DNA from: a virus
IMG/VR virus record: IMGVR_UViG_3300033149_001159
Span: 1-64,000 of that record
Strand: one strand, 5' to 3'
Length of the DNA: 64,000 nt
Below are positions 2 through 63,755 of the stretch, piece after piece. Positions within the stretch are counted from its first letter, which is position 1. Each line of letters opens with the position of its first letter. Position numbers and translations under genes: made by a program. The notes beneath the pieces were generated by a model that was not told the DNA's origin, made no database searches, and saw only the letters and a list, made by a program, of their open reading frames with translations.

Positions 2-418
2 CTATCAGGCGAACCCTGGAAAAAGGTTGAGCGCAACCCACACCAGCGCAGAAGCGGGCGGGATGCCCTGGACAGAAACGCAACATCCTCTTGGGGGCTC
101 GCTGGGTACGTCAAAAAGAACGCGGGTTGGCGTTATCAGACAGATGTAATCACCGGTAATAGCAAACCCTATATGTCACACAGCGAGCGTACTGAACACC
201 CAACCCAAAAGCCCGTAGCGGTTGTATCTACACTTGTCGGGTGGCTAACAAACCCCAACTATGTAGTCTGCGACCCCTTCATGGGTTCAGGGACAACCGG
301 CGTGGCCTGCGTCCAAACAGGCCGCAAGTTCATAGGAATCGAGATTTGTGAAGACTATTTCAACATCGCCGTGAAACGAATCTCAGAAGCACAGCAACAG
401 ATAAGGCTAGGAATATGA
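2..418 (+). CDS. DNA methyltransferase, C-terminal part (5' end outside window)
   Basis: The reading frame is open from the first bases of the window, so only the C-terminal 138 residues are seen. It carries the SAM-binding motif I of amino-methyltransferases (DPFMGSGTTGVACVQTGRKF) followed by the usual GIE strand. The catalytic DPPY-type motif, which comes first in this class, must lie upstream. The family methylates exocyclic amino groups of adenine or cytosine in DNA. The last ~50 residues are almost the same as those of the methyltransferase ending at 62151, so the two are paralogues. The 3' end overlaps the next gene by 4 bases. Confidence 0.9.
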   Translation, partial: LSGEPWKKVERNPHQRRSGRDALDRNATSSWGLAGYVKKNAGWRYQTDVITGNSKPYMSHSERTEHPTQKPVAVVSTLVGWLTNPNYVVCDPFMGSGTTGVACVQTGRKFIGIEICEDYFNIAVKRISEAQQQIRLGI

Positions 419-966
419 ACGAACAAGCCATTCGCTGGTTAGCCGACGCAACCCACATGACGCTGTTTGGGGTCACTATCCAGCAAGTGTGGCAGGACCT
501 ATGGCTGTGGGAAAAGCTCTTGAATCAACACGAAGTGAAGACCATTGTAGAAATAGGCACTAAGCATGGTGGGTTGTCTCTGTTCCTACAGTGTCAGGCC
601 ATTCAGAGAAAGCTGAGATTTGCGACGGTTGACTTGCATCCTTACAAGGCAAGCCCGCTGGCCTTACGATTGGGGCTCATAGACAACTTCTTCTTGGGAA
701 ACGTCTTTGAGCACTGGGGGGCGACGCTGAGGGAGTTGCTTGGAAGTTGTGCCCATCCAGTGATTCTATTCTGTGACGGCGGTGACAAGCGCATGGAGTT
801 TGACTGGTTTGTTCCTAGCCTACAAGCAGGGGATATAGTGGGCGTTCACGATTGGGGGATGGAGTTCTTTGAAGAAGACGCGTGCCACAAAGAATTGTTA
901 ACACCCATTCTCTGGAGCGAATGTGAGGCATTGGATAGCTGGACTAGGTTTTGGGAGGTAAAATGA
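415..966 (+). CDS. CmcI-like SAM-dependent methyltransferase
   Basis: This 183-residue protein shows a Rossmann glycine-rich loop (VEIGTKHGGLSLFL, about residues 45-58), a later acidic strand (ILFCDGGDK) and a GDIVGVHDWG strand. This arrangement is typical of the CmcI/rhamnosyl O-methyltransferase group, which methylates hydroxyls of sugars or small molecules. The substrate cannot be read from the sequence. A sugar aminotransferase follows about 650 bases downstream, so sugar tailoring is a reasonable inference. Start and stop overlap neighbours by 4 bases. Confidence 0.7.
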   Translation: MNEQAIRWLADATHMTLFGVTIQQVWQDLWLWEKLLNQHEVKTIVEIGTKHGGLSLFLQCQAIQRKLRFATVDLHPYKASPLALRLGLIDNFFLGNVFEHWGATLRELLGSCAHPVILFCDGGDKRMEFDWFVPSLQAGDIVGVHDWGMEFFEEDACHKELLTPILWSECEALDSWTRFWEVK

Positions 967-1392: not shown

Positions 1393-1645
1393 AACGGCTA
1401 AAATTGTTGATGGAGCTTTGCACCTAGTCATCTCAAACGATAGGGGCGACCGTGTCGAAAGGTATTGTCCTTTGAAGCGTGCGATTTACGGCAAGGACAA
1501 TGAAGACATGGACAAGAAGTGGACAGAAGAGCTTGTTAGCCACGCCGTTCCATTGATGAATTGGCTCTTGCAACGGCAGCCGCTAGAGAATGTGCGTGGC
1601 AGAATACTGGTGACACTTCGGGAGAAAGGCTATGACGTTGAATGA
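1376..1645 (+). CDS. hypothetical protein
   Basis: An 89-residue protein with no recognised domain. The start is supported by AGGAG 5-9 bases upstream and by overlaps of 17 and 14 bases with its neighbours. The sequence is a mix of charged and hydrophobic residues without a signal or membrane segment. Confidence 0.6.
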   Translation: MKFNLETAKIVDGALHLVISNDRGDRVERYCPLKRAIYGKDNEDMDKKWTEELVSHAVPLMNWLLQRQPLENVRGRILVTLREKGYDVE

Positions 1646-2804
1646 CCTTGCCATCTTTGGCAACAAACCAGCGTTTGACACCATACTCCACGTCGGTAGG
1701 CCTAACATCGGCGACCGCGCGAAGCTACACGAAGCCCTAGACAAGATGCTGGACAGAAAGTGGCTTACTAACGATGGTCCCTACGTCCAAGTGCTGGAAA
1801 ACAAAGTCAAGGAACTTCTGGGGGTTAAGCAATGCGTGGCGGTTGCCAATGGGACGCTGGGGCTAGAGATTGCGGCGCGGTCGCTGTTCAGCGCGGGGCA
1901 CGTGATAGTCCCATCCTTCACCTTTATAGCGACCGCGAGTGCTTTAGACTGGGTGTGGCTCAAACCTGTGTTTGCCGACATCGACCCAAGGACGCACGTC
2001 TTAGATCCAGAAGATGTTGAAGCTAGAATTACTGAAGACACAGTGGGTATTCTAGGAGTGCACGTTTGGGGAACCCCGTGTGCGCCACTAAGCCTAGAAG
2101 CTATCGCCAAGCGGCACGGCGTCAAAGTGTTCTTCGATGCGGCCCACGCCTTTGACTGCCAGCACATGGGCACTCAGATAGGGAACTTTGGGGAATGCGA
2201 AGTCTTCAGCTTGCACGCAACCAAGTTCTTCAACAGCTTTGAAGGCGGATTGATAACGACCAATGATTGTGAGCTGGCTGTGAAACTGCGCAGGCTCAGG
2301 AACTTTGGCTTTGTGGGGGACGGGACGCACAGCGTAGTGTCTGCGGGGACCAACGCCAAGATGAGTGAGATCCACGCCGCCGCTGCCTTGGTGAACCTGG
2401 AATCCCTGGGGGAGTTTGAGTCCCAGAATGCTAGCAATTATACCTACTACCGCGAATGGTTGCCCGAAGGGTTAAGGTTATACCCACTAGAACGCGCCAG
2501 CAACTACCAGTACATTGTAATCGAAGTTATGGAAGGCCCGCTAACAGCAGACAACTTGCGGAACATTCTGTGGGCGGAGAACGTCCACGCTAGACGGTAC
2601 TTTGCACCGCCGTGCCACAAGGTTTACCGCGCGCGGTACAACCTGCCGAATACGGACCTTGTGTCTAGCCGAGTTCTGGTGTTGCCAACTGGCATGGCAG
2701 TAGAGCGCCAGGACATTATGAAGATATGTGAGATTATAGCCTACTGCATGGATAACGCGGAAGAAATTGCCGAGAGGTTGAAGAATGAGCGGGAAGTGGT
2801 TTGA
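1632..2804 (+). CDS. DegT/DnrJ/EryC1/StrS-family PLP aminotransferase
   Basis: A 390-residue fold-type I PLP enzyme of near-normal family length. Visible hallmarks are the substrate loop VANGTLGLEIA, the VPSFTFIATASA segment, the FFDAAHAFD strand carrying the PLP-binding aspartate, and HATKFFNSFEGG with the Schiff-base lysine at about Lys198. The family transaminates nucleotide-linked keto-sugars, or in some members acts as a dehydratase. With glycosyltransferases and methyltransferases elsewhere in the window, a role in making a modified sugar is likely but inferred. One copy of the dispersed palindrome lies inside at 2625. Confidence 0.9.
   Translation: MTLNDLAIFGNKPAFDTILHVGRPNIGDRAKLHEALDKMLDRKWLTNDGPYVQVLENKVKELLGVKQCVAVANGTLGLEIAARSLFSAGHVIVPSFTFIATASALDWVWLKPVFADIDPRTHVLDPEDVEARITEDTVGILGVHVWGTPCAPLSLEAIAKRHGVKVFFDAAHAFDCQHMGTQIGNFGECEVFSLHATKFFNSFEGGLITTNDCELAVKLRRLRNFGFVGDGTHSVVSAGTNAKMSEIHAAAALVNLESLGEFESQNASNYTYYREWLPEGLRLYPLERASNYQYIVIEVMEGPLTADNLRNILWAENVHARRYFAPPCHKVYRARYNLPNTDLVSSRVLVLPTGMAVERQDIMKICEIIAYCMDNAEEIAERLKNEREVV
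2625..2638. repeat. dispersed palindrome copy 1
   Basis: TACCGCGCGCGGTA, inside the aminotransferase gene. Confidence 0.9.
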
Positions 2805-3501: not shown

Positions 3502-3519
3502 GTTGTATTGGAGAACCCT

Positions 3520-4983
3520 ATGACTTATGACTTTCAAGGAATTGAGAGTGTCTATCCTACGCAAGACCCGCCCATCAAGCGGCTAAGGCGCAAGATTGCA
3601 GCATGGATAATGCGCAGCCCGTGGCCCAAGCCGCCGCCTGAGAGTCAAACTACCGTTCACGGGATCGGGGCGGGGACGCTCGACGAGCTTGCCAACCCAT
3701 TTTACAGAATTTCCAACAAGCGCAAACAAGTTTACCACGACCTTCGGGAAATGGACGCCACGGTAGATGAAGTTGCAACGGCCTTGGATATGTTGGCTGG
3801 CAATGCTGTGGCTACCCAATCTGGGGGAAAAGAACCGTTCACAATTGCCTACGTTGGGACTGTAGCAAAGTGGAAGAAGGACATGATTGAAAGGCTTCTC
3901 GCCCGCACGCGGTATGGCGAAAAGGCCTACGAGATCGCCAGGGGGACCCTGAGAGACGGGGATGACTTTCGGCAGTATGTAATCGACGAAGACCGCAACA
4001 TTGTACGGCTCATGTATATGCCGCCAGAATCAATGGTCAGGAACGAAGATTATACTGGCTCGTTGATGACTGGTTCACAGCGAGGGCAGTGGGCCTACGA
4101 GCAATTTGATCCCGTGACTGGACGATTCCTTGCAGGCTTCAAGCCGTGGGAGATTCTACACTCGCGGTGGAATCGTTCTGGAGCATCAGCCTACGGCAGG
4201 TCTTTGATTGCAACGGCCAGGACATCATGGCGGAAGCTTCAGTCGATGGAGGAAGCCCTTGTGATTAACTGGATCACCAGGGCATTTGCAAGACTCTTGT
4301 TTACCCTGGACGTAACGGGGAAGAGTCCAAAGGAAGCCCAGGCTGCTATTCGCGAATTTAAGCGCACGCTACAGACCCGAAAGATTGCCAAGGACGTGGA
4401 GGGAGTAGAACAACTATCTATCGTCAAAGACATTTTCGTGGGGCGTGCTTATCACGACATAGGGGGAAAGGCTCAGGAAGGACTTACTGACGCGAAGGTG
4501 CTCGACACGTCTAGTACGGGATACATGAACCTGTCGGCTATTAACTACTACCGCAGCAAGATCATTATGAGCCTAAGGACTCCAAGGGCTTATCTAGGGC
4601 TAGAAGAAGACATCAACGCGAAAGCCACGCTGGTGCAGGAAGATCGCCGGTATGCCAAGTTCATCATGCAGATTCAGGCAATGCTAACGCTAGGGATTCG
4701 CGAGACGATTAATTTGCAATTGGCACTTCAGGGCGTAGACCCTGCGAAAGTACACTACATTGTGGATTGGCCTGCGCAGGGCTGGACAGACCTGGTGGAG
4801 AAGAGTGAAGCATTGCTGAACTACGCCAAGGCGGACGAGATTCTGTTGCCGCTGAAGGCGATAGATTTGGAACACATCGCGACGACCCAGCAGGGAATGT
4901 CGAGTGTCCAATGGGACGCGATGAAGGAGAGAATAGAAAATGAATCAGTTCCTATGCCAGAACTGCGGGGAGCCGCTGACTAG
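3520..4983 (+). CDS. portal protein (T4 gp20-like)
   Basis: The 487-residue product resembles the gp20-type portal family in its C-terminal half, with INYYRSKIIMSLRTPRAYLG and EEDINAKATLVQEDRRYAKF, where the family has its conserved clip/wing segment. Portals form the dodecameric DNA channel at one capsid vertex. The ATG at 3520 is chosen because GGAG lies 6 bases before it; the upstream TTG at 3508 has no such site. It is the first gene of the head module, directly followed by protease, scaffold and capsid genes, the standard order. Confidence 0.88.
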   Translation: MTYDFQGIESVYPTQDPPIKRLRRKIAAWIMRSPWPKPPPESQTTVHGIGAGTLDELANPFYRISNKRKQVYHDLREMDATVDEVATALDMLAGNAVATQSGGKEPFTIAYVGTVAKWKKDMIERLLARTRYGEKAYEIARGTLRDGDDFRQYVIDEDRNIVRLMYMPPESMVRNEDYTGSLMTGSQRGQWAYEQFDPVTGRFLAGFKPWEILHSRWNRSGASAYGRSLIATARTSWRKLQSMEEALVINWITRAFARLLFTLDVTGKSPKEAQAAIREFKRTLQTRKIAKDVEGVEQLSIVKDIFVGRAYHDIGGKAQEGLTDAKVLDTSSTGYMNLSAINYYRSKIIMSLRTPRAYLGLEEDINAKATLVQEDRRYAKFIMQIQAMLTLGIRETINLQLALQGVDPAKVHYIVDWPAQGWTDLVEKSEALLNYAKADEILLPLKAIDLEHIATTQQGMSSVQWDAMKERIENESVPMPELRGAAD

Positions 4984-5122
4984 CGTCACTTACGTTAATG
5001 GCAAGATGGTGCTTCTGTGTAAGAAGTGTGGTCAGTTTGTAGAGTGCGAAGTGGATATTGCGGACAAACCGCTAACCGCCGACCGCGCTACGCGCGACCA
5101 TGTAAAGTGCTTGGGAGAATAG
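4940..5122 (+). CDS. small zinc-ribbon protein
   Basis: A 60-residue protein with CQNCG and CKKCG pairs 20-odd residues apart, forming a classic zinc ribbon. GGAGAG precedes the ATG. It overlaps the 3' end of the portal gene by 44 bases. Its job in the head module is unknown. Confidence 0.65.
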   Translation: MNQFLCQNCGEPLTSVTYVNGKMVLLCKKCGQFVECEVDIADKPLTADRATRDHVKCLGE

Positions 5123-5184
5123 GCGGCCACGGCCTGAGATAACGGGCTAACCGGCGCGAGTGGCCCCGCGCAAGAGGTTATGAA

Positions 5185-6858
5185 ATGCCGTACACCATCA
5201 CCGTTCGGGATAATGAATACTGTGTTTATCGCAAGGACAGTAACGGGAAGCCCTTTGGTAAGACTTTAGGGTGCCACCCCACGAAGAAGAAAGCCATTGC
5301 CCAGATTGGTGCGATTGAGAGTTCTGAGAAACGGGAGGAGGCGGGCGACCATATCTGTGTCTGCCCTGAGTGTGGGGCCAAGGTTACTGCTGAGATCGGG
5401 CAGAAGTGCAACGCAACGAAATGCCCAAAGTGTGGTGCGATGATGCGAGCGGAAGGGGCCCCGCGCCTAAGCAGGGAGGAGGCGAGCTACATGGTTATCG
5501 TAGAGGGCTGGCTGCCTAAAGGAATCAGCCAGAACGATTTGGACGACGGGGATTTCGCTTGGTTATCCAACGCCTACAAGAGTGGGAAGACGGACGATAA
5601 GTCTAAGGGCCGCAAACTGCCATACAAAGTGCATGGCAAGGTCAACCGTGCGGGCTGGAAGGCTGCGTGGAGGGCTGCGGCCCACCCAGGTGCTAGGCAC
5701 CCATCGTTTGCGGGCGGTCCTAGCCAACAGGCTGTGTTGAAGAAACTGCGGGCAGCAAAGCCAAAGGGGATTGAGATAGACGTGAAGAATCGGTTTACGG
5801 ATACGGAAGAGAACACACCAGCGGTGCTGATTGCATCTGAAAGGCCGCTAGAAATCTTAGAAGAGACACAGGGTGGTCTCAGGGTTGCGGGAGTAGCTTT
5901 GATTGACGGGGCCATCAGTAGCAACCGTCGCCTTTACACAGCAGAGTTCAATGATAGGTGCATGGAGGCGACGAACAAATACATGGCGGAAGGCGGGACC
6001 GTCACCATCTTCAGTCGGCATGGGAACGCAGTAGGGCGGAGCGGGCAAATGCCGACCGCCCTGCCGATTGGGAAGGTGTCGGCCCCGCTTTACCGAAAGG
6101 AAAGTGAGATTTGGTACAACGGGTTCATTGTCGATACGACCGAGGGCAACGATGTAATCAAGCTCATCAAGGCCGAGGTTATGCTTGCTACTTCCATTCG
6201 GGCCATATCCTACAAAAGCCGCATGCGTAGGATGAACGGCCAGGATGTTGAGGAGCTAATAGAAGCAACCATTGTTGGGATTGACACGACGGACGAAGCG
6301 GGAATCAGGGGTGCGGGCATCCGCGAGGTGCTTGAGGAAGCCCCACAGTTTGAAGAGGAGGAAGACATGGACTACGAGAAGATTACTATGGAGGAACTGC
6401 TTGAGCACCGCAAGGACCTTCTGGACGAGCATGCGGCAGCCGTTCAGGAAGCCATGCAGGTCAAGGTGGATGAGGCAGAGGCAAGAGTCGCGGAAGTAGA
6501 GGCCAAGCTCCAAGAAAAGGTGGGCGAGTACGACACCTTACTCGAAGAGAAAGGTGTTATTTCCGAAGCTGCGGAAGGTCAGGTCAAGGACCTGGCGCTA
6601 AAGCTCAAGATTGCCGAGGCAGCTAATTTTGGCGGGATGTCCGAAATTGTGCTCGAAGAGCTAACAAAGAAGGTGAAGTGCGAAGAGGACATTGAAAAGT
6701 ACCTGAAGGAAGCCAAGGACAAGGCTATGACGGTGATTCTGGGGCGGGCTAGCACCGCGAGCGCGAAGGGTCAGACCCTATTCACCGAAGAGGACAACGA
6801 ACCTAAACTGGATGCTGTGCAACGTGGCATTCTGAGATTCGTCGGGAGGGAAGAATAA
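5185..6858 (+). CDS. prohead maturation protease fused to scaffold
   Basis: A 557-residue multidomain protein. Residues 1-50 hold a short domain with a GCHPTKKKA motif. Residues about 58-90 contain a CPECG/CPKCG zinc ribbon. Residues about 105-195 form a further conserved-looking domain (DFAWLSNAY, GRKLPYKVHGKVN). Residues about 230-390 look like a gp21/S80-type serine protease, with candidate catalytic His in FSRHGN and Ser in TSIRAIS. From residue ~395 the chain is an acidic coiled coil like a scaffold. Such enzymes cleave the scaffold and capsid N-termini during maturation. A separate start for the scaffold part is described at 6367. Confidence 0.85.
   Translation: MPYTITVRDNEYCVYRKDSNGKPFGKTLGCHPTKKKAIAQIGAIESSEKREEAGDHICVCPECGAKVTAEIGQKCNATKCPKCGAMMRAEGAPRLSREEASYMVIVEGWLPKGISQNDLDDGDFAWLSNAYKSGKTDDKSKGRKLPYKVHGKVNRAGWKAAWRAAAHPGARHPSFAGGPSQQAVLKKLRAAKPKGIEIDVKNRFTDTEENTPAVLIASERPLEILEETQGGLRVAGVALIDGAISSNRRLYTAEFNDRCMEATNKYMAEGGTVTIFSRHGNAVGRSGQMPTALPIGKVSAPLYRKESEIWYNGFIVDTTEGNDVIKLIKAEVMLATSIRAISYKSRMRRMNGQDVEELIEATIVGIDTTDEAGIRGAGIREVLEEAPQFEEEEDMDYEKITMEELLEHRKDLLDEHAAAVQEAMQVKVDEAEARVAEVEAKLQEKVGEYDTLLEEKGVISEAAEGQVKDLALKLKIAEAANFGGMSEIVLEELTKKVKCEEDIEKYLKEAKDKAMTVILGRASTASAKGQTLFTEEDNEPKLDAVQRGILRFVGREE
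6367..6858 (+). CDS. nested scaffold protein (in-frame internal start)
   Basis: An ATG in the same frame as the protease gene (codon 395) is preceded by a perfect AGGAGG at 6356-6361, five bases upstream. Translation from it would give a 163-residue acidic coiled-coil protein without the protease. Phage lambda uses the same arrangement (C and Nu3) to make scaffold in excess. The SD may partly reflect the Glu-rich coding sequence, so use of this start is inferred. Confidence 0.6.
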   Translation: MDYEKITMEELLEHRKDLLDEHAAAVQEAMQVKVDEAEARVAEVEAKLQEKVGEYDTLLEEKGVISEAAEGQVKDLALKLKIAEAANFGGMSEIVLEELTKKVKCEEDIEKYLKEAKDKAMTVILGRASTASAKGQTLFTEEDNEPKLDAVQRGILRFVGREE

Positions 6859-6860
6859 TC

Positions 6861-8045
6861 ATGGAGAGGATTGGGACTGAAGTAATCCTTGGCGGGGGCG
6901 ACACCTACCGAGATTACATGAATGAGAGGCGGAAGTACAAAGATGCCCTGGTTAACAAGTGGCAGTGGCTGCTTGAGGGCACCAAGAAACAGAACCTGAA
7001 GAAAATCGACCGAAGTCTTTGGCCGACAATGGCGATGGTGTTCGAGAACCAGGTGCTTTCAACAGAACGGAGCCTGATGGAGGCCACAACCACGGGGGGT
7101 GTTTCTATGCCCACGCTGTACTCGTTGCCGATTATCCGCAACGTGTACCCGAACCTTATTGCCATGAAGATCGCAAGCGTCCAGCCGATGCCAATGTCGA
7201 GTGCGGGCGTTATGCAGATCTTCTACCAGGACTTTCAGCGAGAAGATGCTTCTGACGCTAGTCTGAAGGTTTCTGACTCTGACTATGCACTTGGCGCAGA
7301 AAACTCGGTGCCAAAGCGTGTGAAGATGGTAATCACGTCTGAGACCGTGACTGCCGTCAAGAACATTCTTGGAGCATCGTGGTCACAGGAAGTTCAGGAA
7401 GACGCGATGGGTTCGCTGAATATCGACGTAGAGTCTGAGCTGATCACGCAGATGTCCCTTGAGATACTAAGGGAGATTGACCAGATCGTCATCGCCGAGA
7501 TGTTGGCGGGCGCGACCGCTGGTGCAAGTACGTGGACATGGACGAACACGAGCACCTGGTCGAATCAGGAATGGTACAAAGGCCTAGGGCACGCGTTTGT
7601 GGACATGGAAGACGACATTTACGGTGCACGCTTCCGCAGCGGTCAGTGGATTATCGCTGGTCGAAACGTGGTGAAGTACATCCGCAAGATGTCAGACTTT
7701 GTGCCCGCACCGCGCAACCAACCGTTTGATCCGTTCAAGATGGGTGTGGAGAACATCGGGCGACTCACAGGATACTGGGACATTTACCTGACGAACTACC
7801 TGAATACAAACCGCGCCATCATGGGCGTGTATCCAAGGTCAGTAATCGATACGGGCTACGTGTTCTCGCCGTACATTCCACTCACGCCAATGCCGAAGAT
7901 CTACGCGGAATATGCTGCACATGATGATGCGACGTTCCCAGGCGCGTACTCGAACACCGACAAGTGGAGTCGAAACGTCCGCACGAGATATGCCAGGAAA
8001 ATGGTTGTACCAGAGCTCTTTGCAACGCTGACAATCTCTGCCTAG
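6861..8045 (+). CDS. major capsid protein (T4 gp23-like, HK97 fold)
   Basis: The 394-residue protein carries the segment PIIRNVYPNLIAMKIASVQP (about residues 92-111), very like the gp23 family signature near the mature N-terminus. Its position directly after protease and scaffold supports the call. The first ~65 residues are charged and could be a delta region removed on maturation. Gene order and length fit; processing is inferred. Confidence 0.9.
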   Translation: MERIGTEVILGGGDTYRDYMNERRKYKDALVNKWQWLLEGTKKQNLKKIDRSLWPTMAMVFENQVLSTERSLMEATTTGGVSMPTLYSLPIIRNVYPNLIAMKIASVQPMPMSSAGVMQIFYQDFQREDASDASLKVSDSDYALGAENSVPKRVKMVITSETVTAVKNILGASWSQEVQEDAMGSLNIDVESELITQMSLEILREIDQIVIAEMLAGATAGASTWTWTNTSTWSNQEWYKGLGHAFVDMEDDIYGARFRSGQWIIAGRNVVKYIRKMSDFVPAPRNQPFDPFKMGVENIGRLTGYWDIYLTNYLNTNRAIMGVYPRSVIDTGYVFSPYIPLTPMPKIYAEYAAHDDATFPGAYSNTDKWSRNVRTRYARKMVVPELFATLTISA

Positions 8046-8060
8046 ACGATAGGGGGGTCT

Positions 8061-9923
8061 ATGCTCGTTCGGAACTTTACGGGCATTAAGCAGCGTGATT
8101 CGTTGAGTGGTGTAGTGATTCACCCCGACGAATGGACGGACTTGCCCTATGATGCAGCACTCAAGTTCTGGAGATTGCGAGTCGCAGAACTAGACGACTC
8201 GCAGTCTCCAGACAGGTGGTGGAAAGAGCCGGACGGGACCCATATCTTCTGGACAAGCCCCTTTTCGTTGGGGGATGGCTATGCGACCGCAGCGGAGAGT
8301 ATGGTTCTGGCTCTTCTAAGGCAAGGACTCAAGTTACACCTAGCACAAACATGGTTTGGGCAGATGTACGGGCTTGACAAACGAATAGTCGATGGGCTGC
8401 GAGAAGTTCATCCGGCACCGATGCAGGTAGGCATCTGCATGGCAACACCGGGCGAGTTTAATAAGCTACCCACGCCCTACAAGATAGGCATTACCATGTA
8501 CGAAGCAGATAACCCTTTGGAGAACTTGCCGGAGTGGAGGCATGAATGTCGCATCTTGGATATGCTCATTGTACCGTGTGAGTATTGTAAGAGAACGTTC
8601 AGCAAGTTTGTAACCCATTGCCCAATCAAGGTCGTACCGCTCGCGGTAAACCCGTTTTACTACACAGCGAAGAAGAAGAAACCGAAAGACACATTCACGT
8701 TCGGGATGCACGGGACCCTAACGGGAAGAAAGTCACCACTCGAACTTATAGATGCTTTCCAGAAGGCGTTTCCAACCGAAACGGACGTGAGGCTAGAACT
8801 GAAGACCAGGTTGGGAATCTGTGGATACAGGCAGAACCACCTACCTACCATAACAGATTCCAGGGTTACCATACTCGACGAGGATTGGCTGGCCCCGAAG
8901 CTGCGAAAGTGGTTAGAGGGAATAGATGTTTACATATTCCCTTCCAAGGGTGAGGGATTTGGGATGCCGCCGAGAGAAGCAATGGCAACGGGGTGCCCTA
9001 CGATGCTGACAAACCACACGGGACTGGCTGGGGTGTGTAACAAGGAGTACAACTGGCCCATCCCCGTGGCAAAGGAAGAAGAGAGTCCTTTGGGTGGGCT
9101 GTGGAGGCTGCCCGACTGGGATTACGTCATAGAAACCATGCGGTGGATGTACCTTAACAGGGGAAAAGCTTACAAGAAGGGCCACAGGGGCGCAAGGTGG
9201 TTCATAAAGAACCACGGGGCTGACGCTGCTGCAGCGCAACTGAAAGCTGTTATTGAAGGAATTAACCCCTTAGAAAAACATGCGGTTAGGAGAGTGCACA
9301 CAGAAACGATTGCAGGCGGCGCATCTAAAAAGCACACAGCATTCTACGCAGAGATAGAAAGGTTGCTCCCTAAGGGGAAGATTCTCGATGTAGGCGTGGG
9401 CGAAGGCGTCCTGTACGCAGAACTTGTGAAGCGAGGGTATCAAGTTACTGGCATCGTAGAGCCGAACAAGCTATTGTACATTACCAGGCTACTAGAAGCC
9501 CACGGGATTGTGCCTAACCTACTTCCGCAGAAGCTATTTGATTCCCGTAGGCTGAACGCAAAGTTCGATGCTTGTGTGAGCCAGGGGGTGTTGCAAGACT
9601 ACCGCATGCCCGAAATCCAACTAATAGTCAGGTCTTGTTTGGAAGTAGCGCCGCTAGTACTGTTTTCAGTCCCAACGGTGCACTACCCGACAGGCTTTGG
9701 GCCTAGAGCAGGCCTTTGGAGACGAGATAAGTGGGAAGACACGCTAAGGGCTTTCGACTTCGAGTTCCGCTATTATGGGGCTCGCCAATATCTAATGTGC
9801 CAGATACACGGCCTTGACCACGGCCTTAAAGCCCCTAGCTATGGCTATATGGTGGACAATGTATGGCATCCAGGCGCTTGGCAAAGACCGGACGGGAAGG
9901 TAGTTAGGGCCGAGCGAGAGTGA
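8061..9923 (+). CDS. glycosyltransferase (GT4-like)-methyltransferase fusion in the head module
   Basis: A 620-residue protein in three parts. Residues 1-50 (with GVVIHPDEWTDLP) look like a small separate domain. Residues about 65-410 are a GT-B glycosyltransferase, with the GT4-type C-terminal motif PSKGEGFGMPPREAMATGCP near residue 294. Residues about 425-590 are a class I methyltransferase with ILDVGVGEG as the SAM loop and GIVEP as the acidic strand end. It sits between capsid and connector genes with AGGGGG before the ATG, so it should be made with the virion proteins. It may modify capsid or another surface; the acceptor is unknown. A copy of the palindrome lies inside at 8635. Confidence 0.8.
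   Translation: MLVRNFTGIKQRDSLSGVVIHPDEWTDLPYDAALKFWRLRVAELDDSQSPDRWWKEPDGTHIFWTSPFSLGDGYATAAESMVLALLRQGLKLHLAQTWFGQMYGLDKRIVDGLREVHPAPMQVGICMATPGEFNKLPTPYKIGITMYEADNPLENLPEWRHECRILDMLIVPCEYCKRTFSKFVTHCPIKVVPLAVNPFYYTAKKKKPKDTFTFGMHGTLTGRKSPLELIDAFQKAFPTETDVRLELKTRLGICGYRQNHLPTITDSRVTILDEDWLAPKLRKWLEGIDVYIFPSKGEGFGMPPREAMATGCPTMLTNHTGLAGVCNKEYNWPIPVAKEEESPLGGLWRLPDWDYVIETMRWMYLNRGKAYKKGHRGARWFIKNHGADAAAAQLKAVIEGINPLEKHAVRRVHTETIAGGASKKHTAFYAEIERLLPKGKILDVGVGEGVLYAELVKRGYQVTGIVEPNKLLYITRLLEAHGIVPNLLPQKLFDSRRLNAKFDACVSQGVLQDYRMPEIQLIVRSCLEVAPLVLFSVPTVHYPTGFGPRAGLWRRDKWEDTLRAFDFEFRYYGARQYLMCQIHGLDHGLKAPSYGYMVDNVWHPGAWQRPDGKVVRAERE
8635..8648. repeat. dispersed palindrome copy 2
   Basis: TACCGCTCGCGGTA, inside the glycosyltransferase-methyltransferase gene; central two bases differ from copy 1. 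Confidence 0.85.
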
Positions 9924-9930
9924 GGAAACT

Positions 9931-10626
9931 ATGCTCCTGACAGCAATTCGGGAAGCCGTTAGAGACGTATACACAACGGAAACCTATACAGACGAGCAAC
10001 TGGACAGGCGAATAGCCAGTGCGGTGAAGTGGTACAGTAGGTGGAACCCGCACATCAAGAACACTAGTTTCTCAGTCGTTAAAGACCAGCAGTACTACGA
10101 CTTGCCAAGCGATTGCCTAAGAAACTACATAGAAAGGGTGGAATACTGGCCTTCTGGAGGGATAAGCCTGGAACTGAATGCTGCAAATGAATACGCTTTT
10201 GCATACCCGACTGCGGAGTACACCTATGATTTGTACTCGCAAAGAGTAACGGCGGACATAAGGCAGCAAGAGTTCATTCGCAGAATCAAGGGCTACTACT
10301 TCATCGAAAACAACCAAATAGGACTCTTTCCTGTACCAGATGGCAGTGTAGTTACGGTCTATGTCTATTATGGCGCGGCGCATGTGATAAGCGGAGATCC
10401 AGAAGCTTACGCCACAATCCCCGCCGAAGATCTTGGCATTATCCGAGATCTTACTTTAGCAGAGATTATTCAGGGAAAGCAGATTGAGTTTTCGGTAGAG
10501 CCAAACTACACAGAAGGTATGCAGAAAACAATAAAGTCCCAGATTCCCAAGAATGTAGAAGCTACGGTGAGAATGCTACGGGGTGAGTGCCAGGCAAAGT
10601 ATACCAGAAACATGGTGGGTAGCTGA
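9931..10626 (+). CDS. head-tail connector (adaptor) protein
   Basis: A 231-residue protein opening with a helical segment (LLTAIREAVRDVYTTETYTD) typical of gp6/gp15-type adaptors, followed by a beta-rich middle. It is placed right after the head genes and overlaps the next gene by one base. The call rests on position and general character rather than a diagnostic motif. Confidence 0.6.
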   Translation: MLLTAIREAVRDVYTTETYTDEQLDRRIASAVKWYSRWNPHIKNTSFSVVKDQQYYDLPSDCLRNYIERVEYWPSGGISLELNAANEYAFAYPTAEYTYDLYSQRVTADIRQQEFIRRIKGYYFIENNQIGLFPVPDGSVVTVYVYYGAAHVISGDPEAYATIPAEDLGIIRDLTLAEIIQGKQIEFSVEPNYTEGMQKTIKSQIPKNVEATVRMLRGECQAKYTRNMVGS

Positions 10627-13180: not shown

Positions 13181-13680
13181 GACTTGTGCCCGTGAACCAA
13201 GCAGAAATAGACGCTCTATTTGAGCGCATTGAAAAGGCCATCGACACGATGGGCGACGTTGTCGTGCATAAGTCGATGGACTTTGCTGTTCAGACGGTAT
13301 CTGAGATCTTCGAGGGCGAAGGGGCTCATCCAGGGCTAGGCACTCAGGAATGGCAATCCTTGAGTGAAATGCAGAAGGGCATCCGGGCTCACGAGCTGGG
13401 TGAACAGTGGGCTGAGCACCCCATCCTTCAGTTTTATGGCGACCTGTACTTTTCGCTGACCGAACCCGACCACCCGAACGCGATGCAAGCGATTATGAAG
13501 GAACGGCCTGGGGACTATGAGGGGCTTTACGGAACATCTGACCCCAAGTTTGAGCTACACCAGAAGGGAACAGAGGGGCCGAAACGGGTTATCTGGCCGG
13601 TGGACGCTGCGGAAGAACGGCTCATGGCTATGATGGAAGGGCATCTCCTGCATGAAGTGGAGCGAATAGACGGTGTCTGA
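13177..13680 (+). CDS. tail morphogenesis protein (virion morphogenesis family-like)
   Basis: A 167-residue protein starting with GTG in a GTGA overlap. The C-terminal part, [17 protein letters not shown] followed by a basic-proline strand, resembles the phage virion morphogenesis/tail completion family. Finding it between chaperone and tape measure is unusual but fits a tail role. Confidence 0.55.
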
Positions 13681-16600
13681 TTACACCACGAAATACGTAT
13701 TCCGAATAGAGGTTGAGGGCGCGCAAGCGGTACAAGAAGCGCAGCGAGTTCGCGCCCAACTTAATAGTATCATGGCTGGCGGGGGCGCGGGGGGCGCTAC
13801 AGGCGGGGCTCCGTTAACCGGCACCGCACAAGAATTGTTTGAGTATGCTCGTCGGACCACGCCCCTCTATGCCGAACTGGCTCGTGGCGGTAGCAACCTA
13901 ACAAGGGTGTTACAAGAAGCCGAAATACAGATGTTCGGTGTGCGTCGCCTTGCTTATGGGCTGGGGACCACGGGCAGGCAGTTTACCCAATTTGGGCAGA
14001 CTGTTATCAACGTCGCTAAGGAGGCCAGCGAGGCCTACCTGGACTTTGCTGAAGGCATGACCCGTGCAAGCATGGCGATGGAGCTGCCAGTAGAGATGCA
14101 GGATCAGTTTGCCGAGTCCGTCAGAGAGACTTCCAATGTTATGGGCGCTTTTGACGCCCAGCAGTTGATGGAAACCATGCGTGAGTGGGTGGCTGGCACT
14201 GGACAGACAGTAACAAGCCAGCAAGAGCTAAATGATGTAATGGGCGTCACCACTCAGATCATGCGGCTGGCCGCTATAAACAACGTAGATGTTAACAAGA
14301 CAGTCGAGAATGTCGGTGCAGCCATGAGCCAGTTCGGGCTCAGCCAGCAAGATGTGAATGCAATTATAGAGGACTTCAACTTCGTCTCCGCAAAGACGTT
14401 TGCTAACGTCACCGACCTCGGAACGGCGCTGACCTTCGTGGGGCCTGGCGCGGCGCAGGTGGGAGATACATTCCAAGAAGTGACCACTGTTTTGGGTGCC
14501 TTGGCCGACGCCGGTATCAAGGGCAGCAAATCCGGGCGTGCCCTGCGCCAAGTCTACAGGGGACTTATCAAGCCGACAGATGATGCTACCGAAGCGCTGA
14601 ACAAATTATTCAAGGAACAGCTAAAGGTAGGCGAAACCTGGGAGGACATAGTCAAGCCAGGTGGCGAGTTCGTTGGCATCATTGAGTACGTCAGTTTGCT
14701 GGCCGACGCTACCGAGGACTTGACGCAATCTGAACGTGCTAACGCAATGGCTAAGATTACAGTTGCTAATGCCAGCACTTCTCTCATTCAGCTCACCCAA
14801 GACGAGATTGCCTTCCGGAAAACAGCCGCAGAGATGGGTTATGAGAATGTCAGTAAGCTCCGTGCCCAATACAAAGAGAAGATGGGCATATGGGACGAAG
14901 AAGTCTTGGCTTACAAGGCCATTACAGAAGCACTAACTGGGATGAACTACAAGCTGCAAGAGGCTGGCAACCTATTGGTCGAGGCGGTTACAAAGTGGCT
15001 TAACTCAGACCCCGCAAAAGCTGCTAATCTAGTAAACCGCTGGAAGAACGCTGTTTCTGCACTAGGCAAGATCTTCTTTGAAGAAGGCATTCCCGCCGTC
15101 GAACAACTTGTTGAAGTGCTAGAAAAGCTGACTGACTACGCCGAGGAACATCCAGAAACCATTGCCACACTACTAGATTTTGGCATAACAGCAGCAAAGA
15201 TTGGTCTTGTGCTAGGCTTTGCCAAGGCAGTTATGATACTTTCGGCCAACGTGTACTCGTTTGTGAAGGCTCTTCAACGACTAGCGCCTTATATCCCCGA
15301 ACTAGCGGTGTTGGCGGGAATCTTTGGCGAAGCAGCATACCTAAGTGGGCGCGGGCGGGCTGCTACCGAGGCCATGCTGCCAGAATTAACTGACCAAGAG
15401 CTTCGGGATTTATTGGCCCTACAGGCCGAGTTGCCGCCAGAGGTTGCTGGGGCAGGGGGGTGGTCTTCGGCGCAAATTGCCGCAGAGCTAGAGCGCCGTG
15501 CTGCCGGCTACGGTGTTGCTGGAGGCCTTATCGGGCCTGCCGCAGCACCACCTGGCTATTGGGCCAGGCAAGAACAAGAATGGGATATAGGAACACGGGC
15601 AGAGCTACGCACCCCCGCGGTTGCTGGAGAAACACCTACAACAAAGGAACCTGTCAAGCTTGACATCGCAGGCTGGATGGATACCTACGGTGCCTGGGTT
15701 GACGCTGCGGAGCGATTCGAGCAGCAGATCCTTGACAAGCAGAAAGACTTTGACGCCGAGACGATAGTGCTTGAAAAGGCCCACACGCAAGACCTAATAG
15801 ACCTTGACAAAGACCGCGCTGATGGGCGTATTGATATAAACGAGCAATACTACAAAGCTGTAGAAGACACCCAACGAAGTTACAACCGGTCTCTAGAACT
15901 AGCAGAGAAGGATCACAACCAAAGGCTCATAGATATTGCCGAAGATGGTGCGGAGCGGCGAGCTGAACTCATCGCGCGCCAAGCAAAGGCGATTGCTGAT
16001 ACTGAGGCTGCTTACCAGCTTAGCCTGGCAGACGCACAAGAAGCCTTTGAGTACAGTGAGCTGCTTGCCAATGAAAGCTACCTTGAACGTCGCCAGGCAC
16101 TGATAGATGACTACAATGAGTGGGAAGCTGAACAGGCTGATGAACAAACTGACGAAGCCCTTGCACAAGAAGAAGAGCGCAACAAGCGGCTACAGGACCT
16201 AAAAGAAGCCTACCTAAAGGACATGGCACGCGCCCAAGAGGACCACATTGACAACATGTGGGACCATGTTCGGGCGATGGACGCCAGGGGTGCGCTGGAC
16301 CAGATTCGGGATTACCAGAAATGGAAACGCCGCAGAACCGAAGACTATGAAGAAGACCGCAAGAAAGCATCAGAGGTTGACAAAGATGCGCTTGCGAAGG
16401 AAAAGGAAGAGCGTAAGCGCAACCTGGCGGAAGAACTTGCTGAACTAGACGCGGCAGAAGCAAAGCGCAAAGAGAAAGCTAAGAAGGCCTACGAACGCCG
16501 ACTGTACCTGATGAAGCGGGCACATGAGCGTCGGATGGTTGCACTAAGAGAGCAGAACAAAGAAGCGTTGCTTGAGTTCGACGAGGCACAGCGAGACCGC

Positions 16601-59111: not shown

Positions 59112-59240
59112 ATGAAATGTGGAATCAGAGGCCTACTCACGATCCTGGCCAGGTTGTGGCTCGAAAACGCAGAGCTGAAAGCCTTAGTGGCTGCCTACGA
59201 AATCGAGATTGAAGAACTCTATGATGAGCTGGAGGGTTGA
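59112..59240 (+). CDS. small coiled-coil protein (42 aa)
   Basis: A 42-residue helical frame ending IEIEELYDELEG, between terminase and the first glycosyltransferase. The stop overlaps the next start by one base (TGATG). No clear SD. Confidence 0.45.
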   Translation: MKCGIRGLLTILARLWLENAELKALVAAYEIEIEELYDELEG

Positions 59241-60067
59241 TGCAACCGACTGTTGACATTGTGGTGGCTGTGTATAATGCAAGGCCGTTCGTTCTCAGGT
59301 GCTTTCAGTCGGTGAGGGCTGAAACAAAGTACCCGCATAACATCTACTTTGCAGACGACGCCAGTACCGACACAACGCTAGTAAAAGCTATGCGAGATTG
59401 GGATAGCCAAGGGCTGGCTACCCTGTTGCGATCTGAGCGGAACCTTGGGTTCGCCGGAATCAACAACTGGGCGGTCAGGCAGACCAAGAGTGACTTCTTC
59501 TGCCTGCTGAACTCTGATACTGTAGCCCTACGGGGGTGGTTGGGGGCAATGATGGAAGTTATGCTTTCCAATGACCGCATAGGAATTGTGGGGGCAAAGC
59601 TATTGTTCCCCACGGGCAAGCAAGAAAGCGCTGGAACGATACAACACGCTGGGGTTGGTAGAGACAGGACGGGGCAGCCCTACCATCCATACAGAGAAAG
59701 GCCAGCAGACTTTATTCCTGCGAACGTGTTGCGGGAAGTGAACGCCGTTACTGGGGCCTGTATGCTGGTCCGCCGAAAGTGCTGGGACGAGCTAAAAGGC
59801 TTCGACGAACGCTACTCAATGGGGCAGTTTGAGGATGTAGACTTCAACTGGAGGGCTAGAATGGTGGGTTGGAAGATCTACATGCAGCCAAAGGCGGTTC
59901 TGTACCACTACGAACACGGTTCTGGGGAGGAGTTCGTGGTGCGGAGCCACGACAAGAACAAAGACATCTTGTTGAGAACCTGGCGGGGAATTGCGTCAGA
60001 CGAACACCTGTTTCCAGACGGCAAGAGATACGACTACTACCCAAATAGTTACCAGAGGGGAAAGTAA
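59240..60067 (+). CDS. family 2 glycosyltransferase
   Basis: GGAGGG precedes the ATG at 59240. The 275-residue GT-A enzyme has VDIVVAVYNARPFVLRC at the start, DDASTD, and LNSDT as the DxD-like metal site, then GACMLVRRKCWDELKGFDER and FEDVDFNWRAR, the standard acceptor-side motifs of rhamnosyl/GT2 enzymes. First gene of the right-end sugar cluster. Confidence 0.9.
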   Translation: MQPTVDIVVAVYNARPFVLRCFQSVRAETKYPHNIYFADDASTDTTLVKAMRDWDSQGLATLLRSERNLGFAGINNWAVRQTKSDFFCLLNSDTVALRGWLGAMMEVMLSNDRIGIVGAKLLFPTGKQESAGTIQHAGVGRDRTGQPYHPYRERPADFIPANVLREVNAVTGACMLVRRKCWDELKGFDERYSMGQFEDVDFNWRARMVGWKIYMQPKAVLYHYEHGSGEEFVVRSHDKNKDILLRTWRGIASDEHLFPDGKRYDYYPNSYQRGK

Positions 60068-60609
60068 TGTTCAAGTCATGTGGCGAACCATTCACTATGT
60101 TCCCGCTTACCAAGATCATCAACACAGAAGTTATTGAGATAGGCCACCACTGTCAGATAGATGACTTTGTGTTCATCGATGGCGGCGAGTCTACAACCAT
60201 TGGGGACTACGTTCACATAGCGACGTTTGCTTCCATAACAGGAGGCGGTGTACTCAAGCTTGGTAGCTTCACCACGCTTTCTAGTGGGTGTAGAGTCTTT
60301 ACTGGAACAGATGACTTTTCAGGTAAAACGCTCTGTGGCGCGCCCATCCCCGCGCCGTTCAGAGAACCCATACGTAGTGTAGTAAGAATTGGCAAGCACG
60401 CACTGGTAGGGGCTAACGCTGTAGTGTTACCTGGAGCAGTTATCGGGAACGGGACTGTTATCGCAGCGGGGGCTGTGGTTCTCCAGGGGCAACACTGTAC
60501 TCCGTGGTTGGTCTACGCGGGGGTTCCCGCAGTGGTTGTGGGCCGTAGACCAAGGTCAAAGATGGAAGAACTGGAAAAGAAGCTAATGAAGGGGGTCCTA
60601 TGTTTTTGA
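60067..60609 (+). CDS. hexapeptide-repeat acyltransferase
   Basis: A 180-residue protein with imperfect [LIV]-G-x4 hexapeptides (IGHHCQIDDFVFID, IGDYVHI, IGKHALVGANAVVLPGAVIG), the left-handed beta-helix of WbbJ-type O-acetyltransferases. A likely acetyl-CoA-dependent modification of a sugar made by the flanking glycosyltransferases. The ATG overlaps the previous stop by one base. Confidence 0.85.
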   Translation: MFKSCGEPFTMFPLTKIINTEVIEIGHHCQIDDFVFIDGGESTTIGDYVHIATFASITGGGVLKLGSFTTLSSGCRVFTGTDDFSGKTLCGAPIPAPFREPIRSVVRIGKHALVGANAVVLPGAVIGNGTVIAAGAVVLQGQHCTPWLVYAGVPAVVVGRRPRSKMEELEKKLMKGVLCF

Positions 60610-61463
60610 GCGTAGTTATACCCGTTTACAATCGTAGAAATGGACTTCGGCTCTGCCTAGCAGCTTTAGACAAGCAGTCTGTCAAGGATTTCGAGGTAGT
60701 TGTGGCTGACGACGGAAGTGACGATGACCCGTTTGGGGTTCTGGGAGAGTACAATCGGGCTTTGAGCTTGCGTTATGCTTGGCACCAGCGGCGGGGCACA
60801 AGAATTGCCCTGACTCGCAATGAAGGGGCTGCAATTGCCCAGGGTGATGCGTATCTTTTCCTAGACTCCGATGTGCTACTAAACCCTACAGCTATCGGGC
60901 ATTACATGAACATTCACAAAGCTAACCCCGATGTTATCGTAGCAGGAAGGTATGACTGGCTACCACCACAAATCGCGGCGGTGTACCAGGTCCACTACGA
61001 TTGGGAGAAGCTGATCGCGGGTGACCTTCCCAGGCTAGAGACACTGGAAGACGAAGCCCTGGGTTTTCAGGGGGCTGACCCACGTGCGGTAAACCCAGAA
61101 TTGTTCAACAGTTCGGTGATTCACACAGACGGGTACTGCCTATCACTCTTCAGTGGCAATTTGTTGGTCCCCAAGAGAATCTTCCACGAGCTCGGTAGGT
61201 GGGACCAGAACATGATTGGTCACGGCGGAGAAGACGCGGAGTTCGGCATGCGGGTGCAAAGGGTGCATTTGCCAGTTATCTTCTCAGAAGACGTGGTTGG
61301 CTATCATGTTTGGCACGAACGCAACCAATACCTAAACGAAAAGGAGCTGAGAATCAATTGTAGCTACATTGCCCAGAAGCATGACCTGGCCAGTTTGGGC
61401 ATAAGGCATGGAAAGGAGTTCGAGCCCGCCCTGGTATACCGTGAAGGGGTGGACCATGTTTAA
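60600..61463 (+). CDS. family 2 glycosyltransferase
   Basis: A 287-residue GT-A enzyme with SVVIPVYNRRNGL, ADDGSDD and FLDSDVLL as the DxD site. The acceptor end has NLLVPKRIFHELGRWD and HGGEDAEFGMRV, as in galactosyltransferase-type GT2 proteins. It shares a GRYDWLPP segment with the enzyme at 62895. GGGGGT precedes the ATG. Confidence 0.88.
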   Translation: MFLSVVIPVYNRRNGLRLCLAALDKQSVKDFEVVVADDGSDDDPFGVLGEYNRALSLRYAWHQRRGTRIALTRNEGAAIAQGDAYLFLDSDVLLNPTAIGHYMNIHKANPDVIVAGRYDWLPPQIAAVYQVHYDWEKLIAGDLPRLETLEDEALGFQGADPRAVNPELFNSSVIHTDGYCLSLFSGNLLVPKRIFHELGRWDQNMIGHGGEDAEFGMRVQRVHLPVIFSEDVVGYHVWHERNQYLNEKELRINCSYIAQKHDLASLGIRHGKEFEPALVYREGVDHV

Positions 61464-62151
61464 GCCCACATGGGAATCTGGCGACGTTCAACTGTACCTT
61501 GGGGATTGCCTTCAGGTGATGCAGGAGTTAGGCGCCGATAGCGTGGACGCGGTGATTACCGACCCGCCGTATGGGATAGGATTTGGCTATGAATCATCGT
61601 ACATAGACACGCCCAAAACGTATGGCAACTGGATATGGGAATGCATGAGACTGGCTGAGTCAAAGTGTAGCCCAGGTTCACCCATCTTCATTTGGCAGGC
61701 GATGCTGAATATTCGGTATCTCCACCAATGGTTTCCAAGAGAGTGGCGACTTTTTGCTGCGTGCAAGAACTTTGTGCAAATACGAAAGATTGCCATGCAG
61801 TATGCTTTCGATCCAGTCGTTGTATGGTGGACGCCTGGCGAGGTGTGGTCAGATGCTAGTGCTAACCGCGATTGGCACATTGGCAATACAGCCAATACGC
61901 TGAACCGGAAGGCGGGCGACGCTCTGGGACACCCATGTGCAAGGCCGCTGAACCAAATCAAACACATCGTGGCGCAATGGGCGCGGCCCGGCAGCGTTGT
62001 GTTGGATTGTTTCATGGGCAGCGGCACAACGGGCGTGGCGTGTGTCAAAACAGGCCGCAAGTTCATCGGTATAGAGATTGAGCCAAAGTATTTCGACATT
62101 AGCGTAAAGCGCATCTCGGAAGCACAACAGCAAATAAGGCTAGGAATCTAA
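61456..62151 (+). CDS. DNA methyltransferase (beta-type order)
   Basis: From the ATG at 61456 the enzyme is 231 residues. TDPPYGIGFGY is near residue 35 and DCFMGSGTTGVACVKTGRKF near 184, so the gene is complete and small. Only about 140 residues lie between them, with little room for a target recognition domain. Its last ~50 residues nearly match the methyltransferase at the left edge. Placed among glycosyltransferase genes. Confidence 0.88.
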   Translation: MFKPTWESGDVQLYLGDCLQVMQELGADSVDAVITDPPYGIGFGYESSYIDTPKTYGNWIWECMRLAESKCSPGSPIFIWQAMLNIRYLHQWFPREWRLFAACKNFVQIRKIAMQYAFDPVVVWWTPGEVWSDASANRDWHIGNTANTLNRKAGDALGHPCARPLNQIKHIVAQWARPGSVVLDCFMGSGTTGVACVKTGRKFIGIEIEPKYFDISVKRISEAQQQIRLGI

Positions 62152-62160
62152 GGGGGGGCA

Positions 62161-62898
62161 ATGTTTCTGAGTTTTGTTATTCCGACATACGAACGAGTAG
62201 CCAACCTGCGCAGGGTGCTCAGTTCGCTGATTTTCCAAACAGACCGCGATTTCGAGGTCATCGTGAGCGACGATGGCAGCACAGATGGCACCGCTGCAAT
62301 GGTTCGCCAGCAGGCCGAAAGGCTGCCTATCAAGTATTTCTGGCACAAGCACCAAGGGTATAGGTTAGCTATGGTGCGCAATAGGGGTGCAGCGCTACGC
62401 GACAAGAAGACGACGCACGTATGGTTTCTTGACTCTGATGTCGTGCTTCCCAAGGATGCCGTTGCCCAGGCCAAGAACATCTACGCGAAACACCCTGACG
62501 TAGTGCTAGCAGGCAAATACGACTGGATGCACGAACACCCGTGGCCCGTAGAGTGTGGACCGAACTACTGGGAAGAGTTCTCCAAACTACCATTCAGGCC
62601 TGACCACCGGAAACAGGCGTTTGACAACGAGACAATTCATACCTTCTATGAAGGGGGTGTCATCGGGGCCAATATCTTGTGCCCTGTAAAATGGTTGCTG
62701 AAAAGGGGCTTTGACGAGAACATTATCGGCGGCGGGGAAGATGGCGAATTCTCCTATCATTTGCAGGAACAAGGTGCGCCAGTCATCTTTTCTTCGGCGA
62801 CACGGGGGCTGCACATGTGGCACCCGCGAGACCCCGCAGGGGACAACTCGATGGCACTACACATCATAAGGACACGCTACTTGGGAATGGATGAATGA
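62161..62898 (+). CDS. family 2 glycosyltransferase
   Basis: A 245-residue GT-A enzyme with SFVIPTYERVANLRRVL, SDDGSTD, FLDSDVVL (DxD) and IIGGGEDGEFSYHL. GGGGGGG precedes the ATG. Close in style to the enzymes at 60600 and 62895, suggesting duplication within the cluster. Confidence 0.88.
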   Translation: MFLSFVIPTYERVANLRRVLSSLIFQTDRDFEVIVSDDGSTDGTAAMVRQQAERLPIKYFWHKHQGYRLAMVRNRGAALRDKKTTHVWFLDSDVVLPKDAVAQAKNIYAKHPDVVLAGKYDWMHEHPWPVECGPNYWEEFSKLPFRPDHRKQAFDNETIHTFYEGGVIGANILCPVKWLLKRGFDENIIGGGEDGEFSYHLQEQGAPVIFSSATRGLHMWHPRDPAGDNSMALHIIRTRYLGMDE

Positions 62899-63755
62899 GC
62901 CACATCTGCGTAGTTATGGCTGTACACAACCGATTCCAGAATGTGAATATGGCGTTGTTCTCATGGGCACTTCAGTTCCGCGACGACTTCAGTGTTGTGG
63001 TGGCCGACGATGGTAGTACAGATGATATTGCGGCGCTAGTAGAATACTACGAGCGTTATCTCAACATCTGCCACGCTCGACGAGAAGAAGGTGGAAACGT
63101 GGCGGCCAATCTCAACCAGGGTACTAAGTGTGCGCCACCCGAAACCACGCACATTTGGTATACGGATGGAGACATAATCCGCAAGAGTGATGCGATGGGC
63201 TGGGCATACAAGCACATAGAAGAATACCCTAACAGAACGATTATAGGTAGATACGACTGGCTACCGCCAATGGAGATTGTGGCAGACAACCTTCGGTGGG
63301 AATGGGAGAAGATCATAGCCTGTGAGCTACCTAGACTGGACGTTCCAGAGAAAGACCAAGCCTACAGAGAAGACCACCGACTGACCAATGACCCAGAAGC
63401 GTTTGAGCACAAGCTGGCGAACCATTCAGGCCATATCCTGGGAGCAAACTTTATCATACCTATCCAGGCATTCTACGATACAGGTGGGTGGGATGAGTGG
63501 ATTCCAGGCGGAAATGCCAACGATTCGGACATGGGCTGGATGCTCACACAGGCGGGTTACGGGTCGTTCTCGTCTCCACATCTGACGGGGTACCACATGT
63601 GGCATCCGAGAGACAGCAAGGCCCTAGCAGAGAACGCGGGGATAGCCCTAGTCTACATTTTTCGTAAACGCGGTCAGGAAGTGCCCGACTACTACAAGCC
63701 GTACATAGAGAAAGAGAAGCAGTGGAGGAAGGAACATGGCTGGCCAGAAGTCTGA
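62895..63755 (+). CDS. family 2 glycosyltransferase
   Basis: A 286-residue GT-A enzyme with CVVMAVHNRFQNV, ADDGSTD and YTDGDIIR in place of the usual DSD metal site. It shares GRYDWLPP and WHPRDS with its paralogues. Fourth glycosyltransferase in a row, so a branched or multi-sugar product is possible. The 3' end overlaps the next gene by 20 bases. Confidence 0.85.
   Translation: MSHICVVMAVHNRFQNVNMALFSWALQFRDDFSVVVADDGSTDDIAALVEYYERYLNICHARREEGGNVAANLNQGTKCAPPETTHIWYTDGDIIRKSDAMGWAYKHIEEYPNRTIIGRYDWLPPMEIVADNLRWEWEKIIACELPRLDVPEKDQAYREDHRLTNDPEAFEHKLANHSGHILGANFIIPIQAFYDTGGWDEWIPGGNANDSDMGWMLTQAGYGSFSSPHLTGYHMWHPRDSKALAENAGIALVYIFRKRGQEVPDYYKPYIEKEKQWRKEHGWPEV

Follow-up and report, generated by a model that had tools for sequence, protein, structure and literature searches.

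A candidate capsid-docked glycosyltransferase encoded beside the major capsid gene in an uncultivated phage lineage

Introduction

In the phage genome studied here, the place directly after the major capsid gene is taken by a gene for a 620-residue protein, in which a small N-terminal domain, a glycosyltransferase (GT) and a methyltransferase-like domain are joined. We wondered why such an enzyme should be encoded within the head genes and what it might modify. How a phage glycosyltransferase reaches its proper target in the virion is, to our knowledge, an open question. A capsid-binding-like domain built into a glycosyltransferase and kept beside the capsid gene would offer a concrete answer, i.e. 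targeting by docking, and suggests a possible small tag for bringing enzymes to a capsid.

Results

The gene and its neighbours

The window, i.e. the whole stretch of DNA that was analysed, comprises 64,000 nucleotides (positions 1 to 64,000 of IMG/VR virus record IMGVR_UViG_3300033149_001159). Its head genes are arranged as follows.

3508..4983, + strand: portal protein, T4 gp20-like (PF07230, 1.3e-27)
5185..6858, + strand: conserved ORF in the interval between portal and capsid genes, at the prohead/scaffold position (synteny in relatives)
6861..8045, + strand: major capsid protein (MCP), T4 gp23-like (Pfam Gp23 PF07068, 2e-30; phrog_138, 5.8e-32)
8051..8057, + strand: purine-rich, ribosome-binding-like stretch upstream of the ATG (sequence reading)
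8061..9923, + strand: whole gene of the N-domain-GT-methyltransferase protein, 620 aa, ATG start
8061..8195, + strand: small N-terminal domain (N-domain), residues 1-45 (domain of about 45-50 aa), YqbF/gpFI-C-domain-like, proposed capsid dock
8223..9275, + strand: GT4-type GT-B glycosyltransferase domain, residues ~55-405 (Pfam, PHROG, VIA-align, motifs)
9312..9896, + strand: class I SAM methyltransferase-like domain, residues ~418-612 (sub-cut-off PF13649, motif I)
9931..10626, + strand: head-tail adaptor, SU10 type (Pfam SU10_adaptor PF24175, 2.2e-10)

Only 15 bases separate the MCP gene from the gene of the 620-aa protein, which is followed after 7 bases by the gene of the SU10-type adaptor. 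Since relatives occur on 38 viral contigs, the frame is not a chance ORF, and the original prediction of a glycosyltransferase-methyltransferase fusion between capsid and connector genes holds for 8061-9923. The accompanying statement that at this place nearly all known phages encode structural proteins alone goes too far if applied to the head-tail cluster as a whole: gene 21 of Arthrobacter phage DanielleIgnace and gene 31 of Microbacterium phage Magritte are annotated glycosyltransferases inside this cluster. Both resemble the window gene in being GT homologues within a structural cluster; they differ in that they are shorter, match the query only in part and do not directly follow the MCP gene. 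Among isolates of the phage collection, 136 records matched the query, none of them over 80% of its length, so that the fusion was not found there; neither was it described in the portions of the published literature covered by our search. While virion glycosylation and glycosyltransferases in head-tail clusters are already known, a GT fusion at the position of FI (see below) appears to be new.

Glycosyltransferase and methyltransferase-like domains

Two Pfam families match the central domain above their cut-offs (PF13692, 6e-11, 43.2 bits with cut-off 27; PF00534, 5e-10, 39.7 bits with cut-off 26.4), as does the glycosyltransferase family phrog_2170 at 3.8e-26 over residues 63-399. The predicted structure belongs to the GT-B fold, with BshA (6d9t) aligned by VIA-align at Z 25.1 and rmsd 3.2 over 318 residues. 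The fold is shared with the GT4 enzymes BshA, MshA and PimA (Z about 24-25), whereas identity in these alignments is just 12-15%. Altogether 35 distinct relative proteins were collected, of which the 32 with at least 400 aa were used for motif counts. The RK (basic donor site) and EX7E motifs are present in all 32.

The C-terminal region is less clear-cut. PF13649 (Methyltransf_25) matches residues 441-529 with E 4e-4 and 21.4 bits, below the cut-off of 27, and is detected in no more than three of eight members even at E<=1. Strands and helices alternate in this region of the full-length model, and the fold-search matches listed are taken up by the GT domain. The window protein contains motif I, LDVGVGEG, with its acidic residue and glycine-rich loop. 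Judged from these features, the methyltransferase half of the predicted fusion is probably right, if weak by profile. The acidic residue is kept in 22/32 relatives and missing in eight (L004, L006, L007, L032, L034, L038, L039 and L042), while L009 is without the domain and L024 is a broken frame. A methylated sugar, as originally proposed, is accordingly doubtful: 10 of the 32 relatives have a methyltransferase site that is lost, missing or disrupted, and Methyltransf_25 is recognised in few members. Given that RK and EX7E occur in 32/32 proteins and motif I in 22/32, the predicted function shared by all members is glycosyl transfer, and methylation varies at best. In L039 (7779-8840) and L032 (7815-9014), two members in which the first methyltransferase motif is degenerate, the downstream GT2 gene bears a methyltransferase domain.

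The N-terminal domain is separate and constrained

The first ~50 residues had been predicted to form an independent small domain. Modelled alone with 29 relatives, residues 1-50 reach mean pLDDT 91.4 and pTM 0.69; the full-length AlphaFold model (eight relatives) has mean pLDDT 73.0. In all 50 structural rows listed, GT-B alignments begin at model residue 54 at the earliest and finish by residue 408. The solo fold and these boundaries agree with the prediction, the N-terminal residues being no part of the GT fold.

Comparison of 12 sequence pairs revealed pN below pS in every domain of every pair, with pN/pS of 0.09-0.41 in the N-domain, 0.10-0.27 in the GT and 0.19-0.54 in the methyltransferase-like domain. 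The N-domain is under purifying selection. It has one copy per genome in each of the seven large records, always within a long frame of the N-domain-GT kind, and a single match in the genome of the window. Searches with its 29 members gave no consistent match in NCBIfam, Pfam and PHROGs; there was no match among PDB sequences, and tblastn of one member against isolates gave nothing convincing.

Likeness of the N-domain to lambda gpFI and YqbF

The best solved VIA-align match of the N-domain is Bacillus subtilis YqbF (2hjq; Z 6.4, rmsd 2.2, 48 aligned residues), and lambda gpFI is represented among the listed matches by its C-terminal domain (2lsm, Z 3.8). Since in the same comparison an unrelated primase chain reaches Z 6.2 and GINS chains attain values as high as 5.4, fold alone is indecisive for kinship. 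In a library of viral models, many stand-alone phage proteins of 50-100 aa match with probability near 1 and E above 0.001; these were tied to genes by organism and length only.

Among 132 six-frame ORFs from the first 10 kb of lambda, the 29-member profile ranks gpFI first. The same holds for gpFI in mEp237 (41 ORFs), phi80 (45), N15 (39) and 2B8 (44), although the five lambdoid phages are mutually related and worth about one or two tests. Gene 26 (74 aa) of Staphylococcus phage 6ec likewise ranks first of 272 (first 40 kb). Of 120 column-shuffled profiles, one put gpFI first in lambda, one put gene 26 first in 6ec and none placed the two on top together; with the profile reversed, neither protein was listed. 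Direct comparison by hhalign aligned 26 columns with the gpFI C-domain at E 0.0054, the probability being only 6.8%.

Other candidates ranked lower. Gp19 of phiAxp-2 (77 aa) and gp11 of DIBBI (51 aa), each the second gene after MCP, came 46th of 659 and 6th of 598, respectively. The gene after MCP in TP901-1, orf37, which we take to be MCP3, the protein termed gpFI-like in PMC4493119, was 28th of 100. When 13 distant MCP loci were ranked with the N-domain profile, no general preference for the gene behind MCP emerged: rank 1 went to a 295-aa ORF of L096 and to a probably spurious overlapping ORF of L010, others being lower or unlisted. The small protein after MCP in the distant relatives L010-L012 was rejected as kin, as hhalign shows no relation. 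The closest capsid relatives outside the lineage do not, as a rule, show an N-domain after their MCP. A 131-aa match from Streptomyces phage VWB in the viral fold library was dropped as a counterpart, having no placement after the VWB MCP. Between MCP and Ad1 of this phage there is an unannotated frame (L084, 1486-1838), whose start resembles the small domain by eye.

Gene order runs in parallel: MCP (E)-FI-FII in lambda, MCP-gene 26-Ad1 in 6ec and MCP-[N-domain-GT-methyltransferase]-adaptor in the window. In the window and its relatives, as in lambda, the gene in question lies between MCP and the head-tail connector. The arrangement within the proteins is different, since in gpFI an extra N-terminal part precedes the domain, while here the domain itself is N-terminal and followed by the GT and methyltransferase parts. 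Taken together, the N-domain is probably homologous to the gpFI/YqbF domain. In a 2012 study by Popovic, head binding by gpFI is said to be done by its C-domain. According to PMC7889075 and PMC4493119, gpFI exerts its action by way of the major head protein; the latter paper describes it as a capsid chaperone that helps terminase complexes to engage the procapsid. Capsid docking by the N-terminus, as had been suggested, is plausible because YqbF and gpFI stand nearest to it by structure and profile; binding itself we infer from this kinship.

Linkage to the capsid gene

We examined how strictly the gene is associated with the capsid gene. Search of viral contigs with the GT alignment retrieved 38 contigs. 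An MCP-profile search, which is blind to the GT, retrieved 40; four stop inside MCP (L076-L079), and in all remaining 36 the N-domain or GT comes next. These 36 include L047 and L053 (on the contig of L024), where by eye a LAGLIDADG-like ORF lies between, and L071 (on the contig of L032), an apparent and doubtful MCP-GT fusion. The union of both searches comprises 46 contigs, 42 of which pass the end of MCP, and 42/42 carry the gene. A portal search yielded 48 contigs; of 15 loci inspected, 11 were on new contigs, and the one of these that reaches past MCP (L120) has the gene as well. An adaptor-anchored search added a sole weak locus, L107, taken as outside the lineage, with GT absent from its ORF list. 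Homing-endonuclease-like ORFs were noticed by eye exactly between capsid and GT genes, of LAGLIDADG type in L024 and L047 and of HNH type in L031 and L045.

To describe coinheritance, pairwise distances were correlated with those of MCP for 29 taxa, a set that excludes near-duplicate loci and short fragments as well as L024 and L032. The coefficients were 0.84 for GT, 0.86 for the N-domain, 0.93 for portal and 0.82 for adaptor. The GT value, near that of the adaptor and below that of the portal, indicates that the gene and the head module are inherited together. When MCP, GT and adaptor are all present (26 loci, window included, near-duplicates kept), a GT2 gene lies between GT and adaptor in 19; it is absent in the window and L002. 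The GTDB genome collection yielded no GT relative, and the gene therefore has no known prophage form; MCP relatives in that collection are 24-27% identical and come from mixed organisms.

A capsid-GT fusion as a sign of tethering, and read-through from MCP into GT, were both considered and rejected. L032 contains a 968-aa in-frame MCP-GT ORF (4927-7833). A locus of the same metagenome, L068, shares 83.6% identity with it on the MCP side and 100% on the GT side (119 bases), and the join lacks bases; an assembly chimera or private deletion is therefore likelier. Read-through of the MCP stop codon would give a fusion in the window, where the frames coincide without a stop between; in L002-L004 the distance between the genes cannot be divided by three, hence read-through is not conserved.

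Glycan genes of the phage

The genome carries further genes for glycan synthesis.

415..966, + strand: rhamnosyl O-methyltransferase/CmcI-like protein (PF04989, 3.1e-5, just above cut-off)
1632..2804, + strand: DegT-family sugar aminotransferase (PF01041, 3.6e-85; DesI TIGR04427, 3e-126, under its equivalog cut-off)
59237..63755, + strand: glycan island of four GT2 genes and a hexapeptide acyltransferase (Pfam)
61408-62151: DNA methylase ORF interrupting the island
beyond the window, up to record position 68152: continuation of the island with GT4-like, GT2 and PseB-like dehydratase genes (NCBIfam PseB, 1.7e-75, under its equivalog cut-off; genome search)

A 114-base direct repeat is common to both record ends (1 and 68738), inside a DNA methylase gene. 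The 68.7-kb record is therefore probably a complete map, and the island, which runs from 59.2 kb to the end of the record, probably forms a single block with the sugar genes at 0.4-2.8 kb, a short way ahead of the portal gene. The PseB-like dehydratase and DesI-like aminotransferase, as read from sequence, suggest an amino-deoxy-sugar donor. In total, the record of the window has five GT2 and three GT4-type matches, and the seven large records, two of which (G002 and G005) are near-identical in these tables, have 4-6 and 1-3 in each, respectively. The sugar aminotransferase is present in 5/7 large records and a Polysacc_synt_2 match in 2/7.

Discussion

Proposed role

We put the probability at roughly 0.5 that the protein is a capsid-docked glycosyltransferase which modifies virion proteins and is supplied by the glycan island of the phage. 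The N-terminal ~45 residues, of the YqbF/gpFI-C-terminal type, would dock on MCP or the procapsid and so keep the GT4 enzyme beside its substrate during head assembly. The likeliest substrate would be MCP or a head or tail protein next to it, modified at an exposed residue or on a glycan already being built. The phage's own island would provide activated sugars and additional transferases, and the GT2 gene found just downstream in most relatives would lengthen the glycan. The methyltransferase-like domain may add a methyl cap to the sugar in the window phage, the site looking lost in several relatives. These data suggest that such phages sugar-coat their own particles during shell building, presumably to the benefit of a glycan shield or decoy. 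Kinship with gpFI, capsid binding, enzyme activity, substrate and benefit are all steps that we infer, as is modification of virion proteins. The protein may also co-assemble into the virion, as had been suggested at first. Sugar coating of the virion may be a core trait of this uncultivated lineage, whose capsid protein is T4-like.

We know of no GT-fused capsid-docking domain in mycobacteriophage virion glycosylation. PMC12619734, with reference to Freeman 2023, describes a phage whose capsid and tail-tube subunits carry glycans. The outcome would be the same as proposed here, with the difference that those glycans were observed and the ones here are predicted.

Alternative explanations

A tentative and rather doubtful variant is that a packaging chaperone of the gpFI kind has turned into a glycosylating enzyme, with sugar addition coupled to capsid assembly or DNA packaging. 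If so, only shells recognised by the head-binding domain would be marked or armoured, by donor sugars made by the island.

The glycosyltransferase could instead act on host glycans. One chain would then have two functions, the N-domain being only a packaging chaperone or head protein in the role of gpFI and the enzyme altering glycans of the host envelope, e.g. to block superinfection. Serotype-altering glycosyltransferases acting on hosts are indeed mentioned in PMC12619734, the glycan island is large, and each of the seven records has this N-domain as its sole one. Because the GT stays in the head operon on 36/36 contigs and the GTDB genome collection yielded no GT relative, leaving no known prophage form, we regard this division of labour as unlikely.

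It is quite improbable that the protein is primarily a minor head protein or assembly factor, in which GT activity is secondary and the GT-B body serves as a decoration or assembly module. Strict position, coinheritance resembling that of adaptor and portal, and a methyltransferase half seemingly inactive in part of the family would fit such a role, whereas retention of RK and EX7E in 32/32 proteins and further GT genes adjoining in most relatives speak for an enzyme.

Glycosylation of phage DNA (hypermodified bases) around packaging, for which a gpFI-like domain would be located at the right site and which virus-encoded glycosyltransferases reportedly perform (a 2024 study by Pyle), is very improbable, as a thymidylate-synthase-like hydroxymethylase, the sole base-hypermodification route examined, occurs in 0/7 large records.

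Other genes of the window

Among the tail genes, a 780-aa collagen-like protein with GDT-rich triplet repeats is encoded at 23538-25880. The tape-measure protein (13673-18274) combines PhageMin_Tail and LysM domains. A second methyltransferase-like ORF, recognised by eye and without Pfam match at 0.01, spans 27612-29332. It overlaps a gene of GT4 type, follows tail-fibre-like genes and is a possible modifier of tail fibres.
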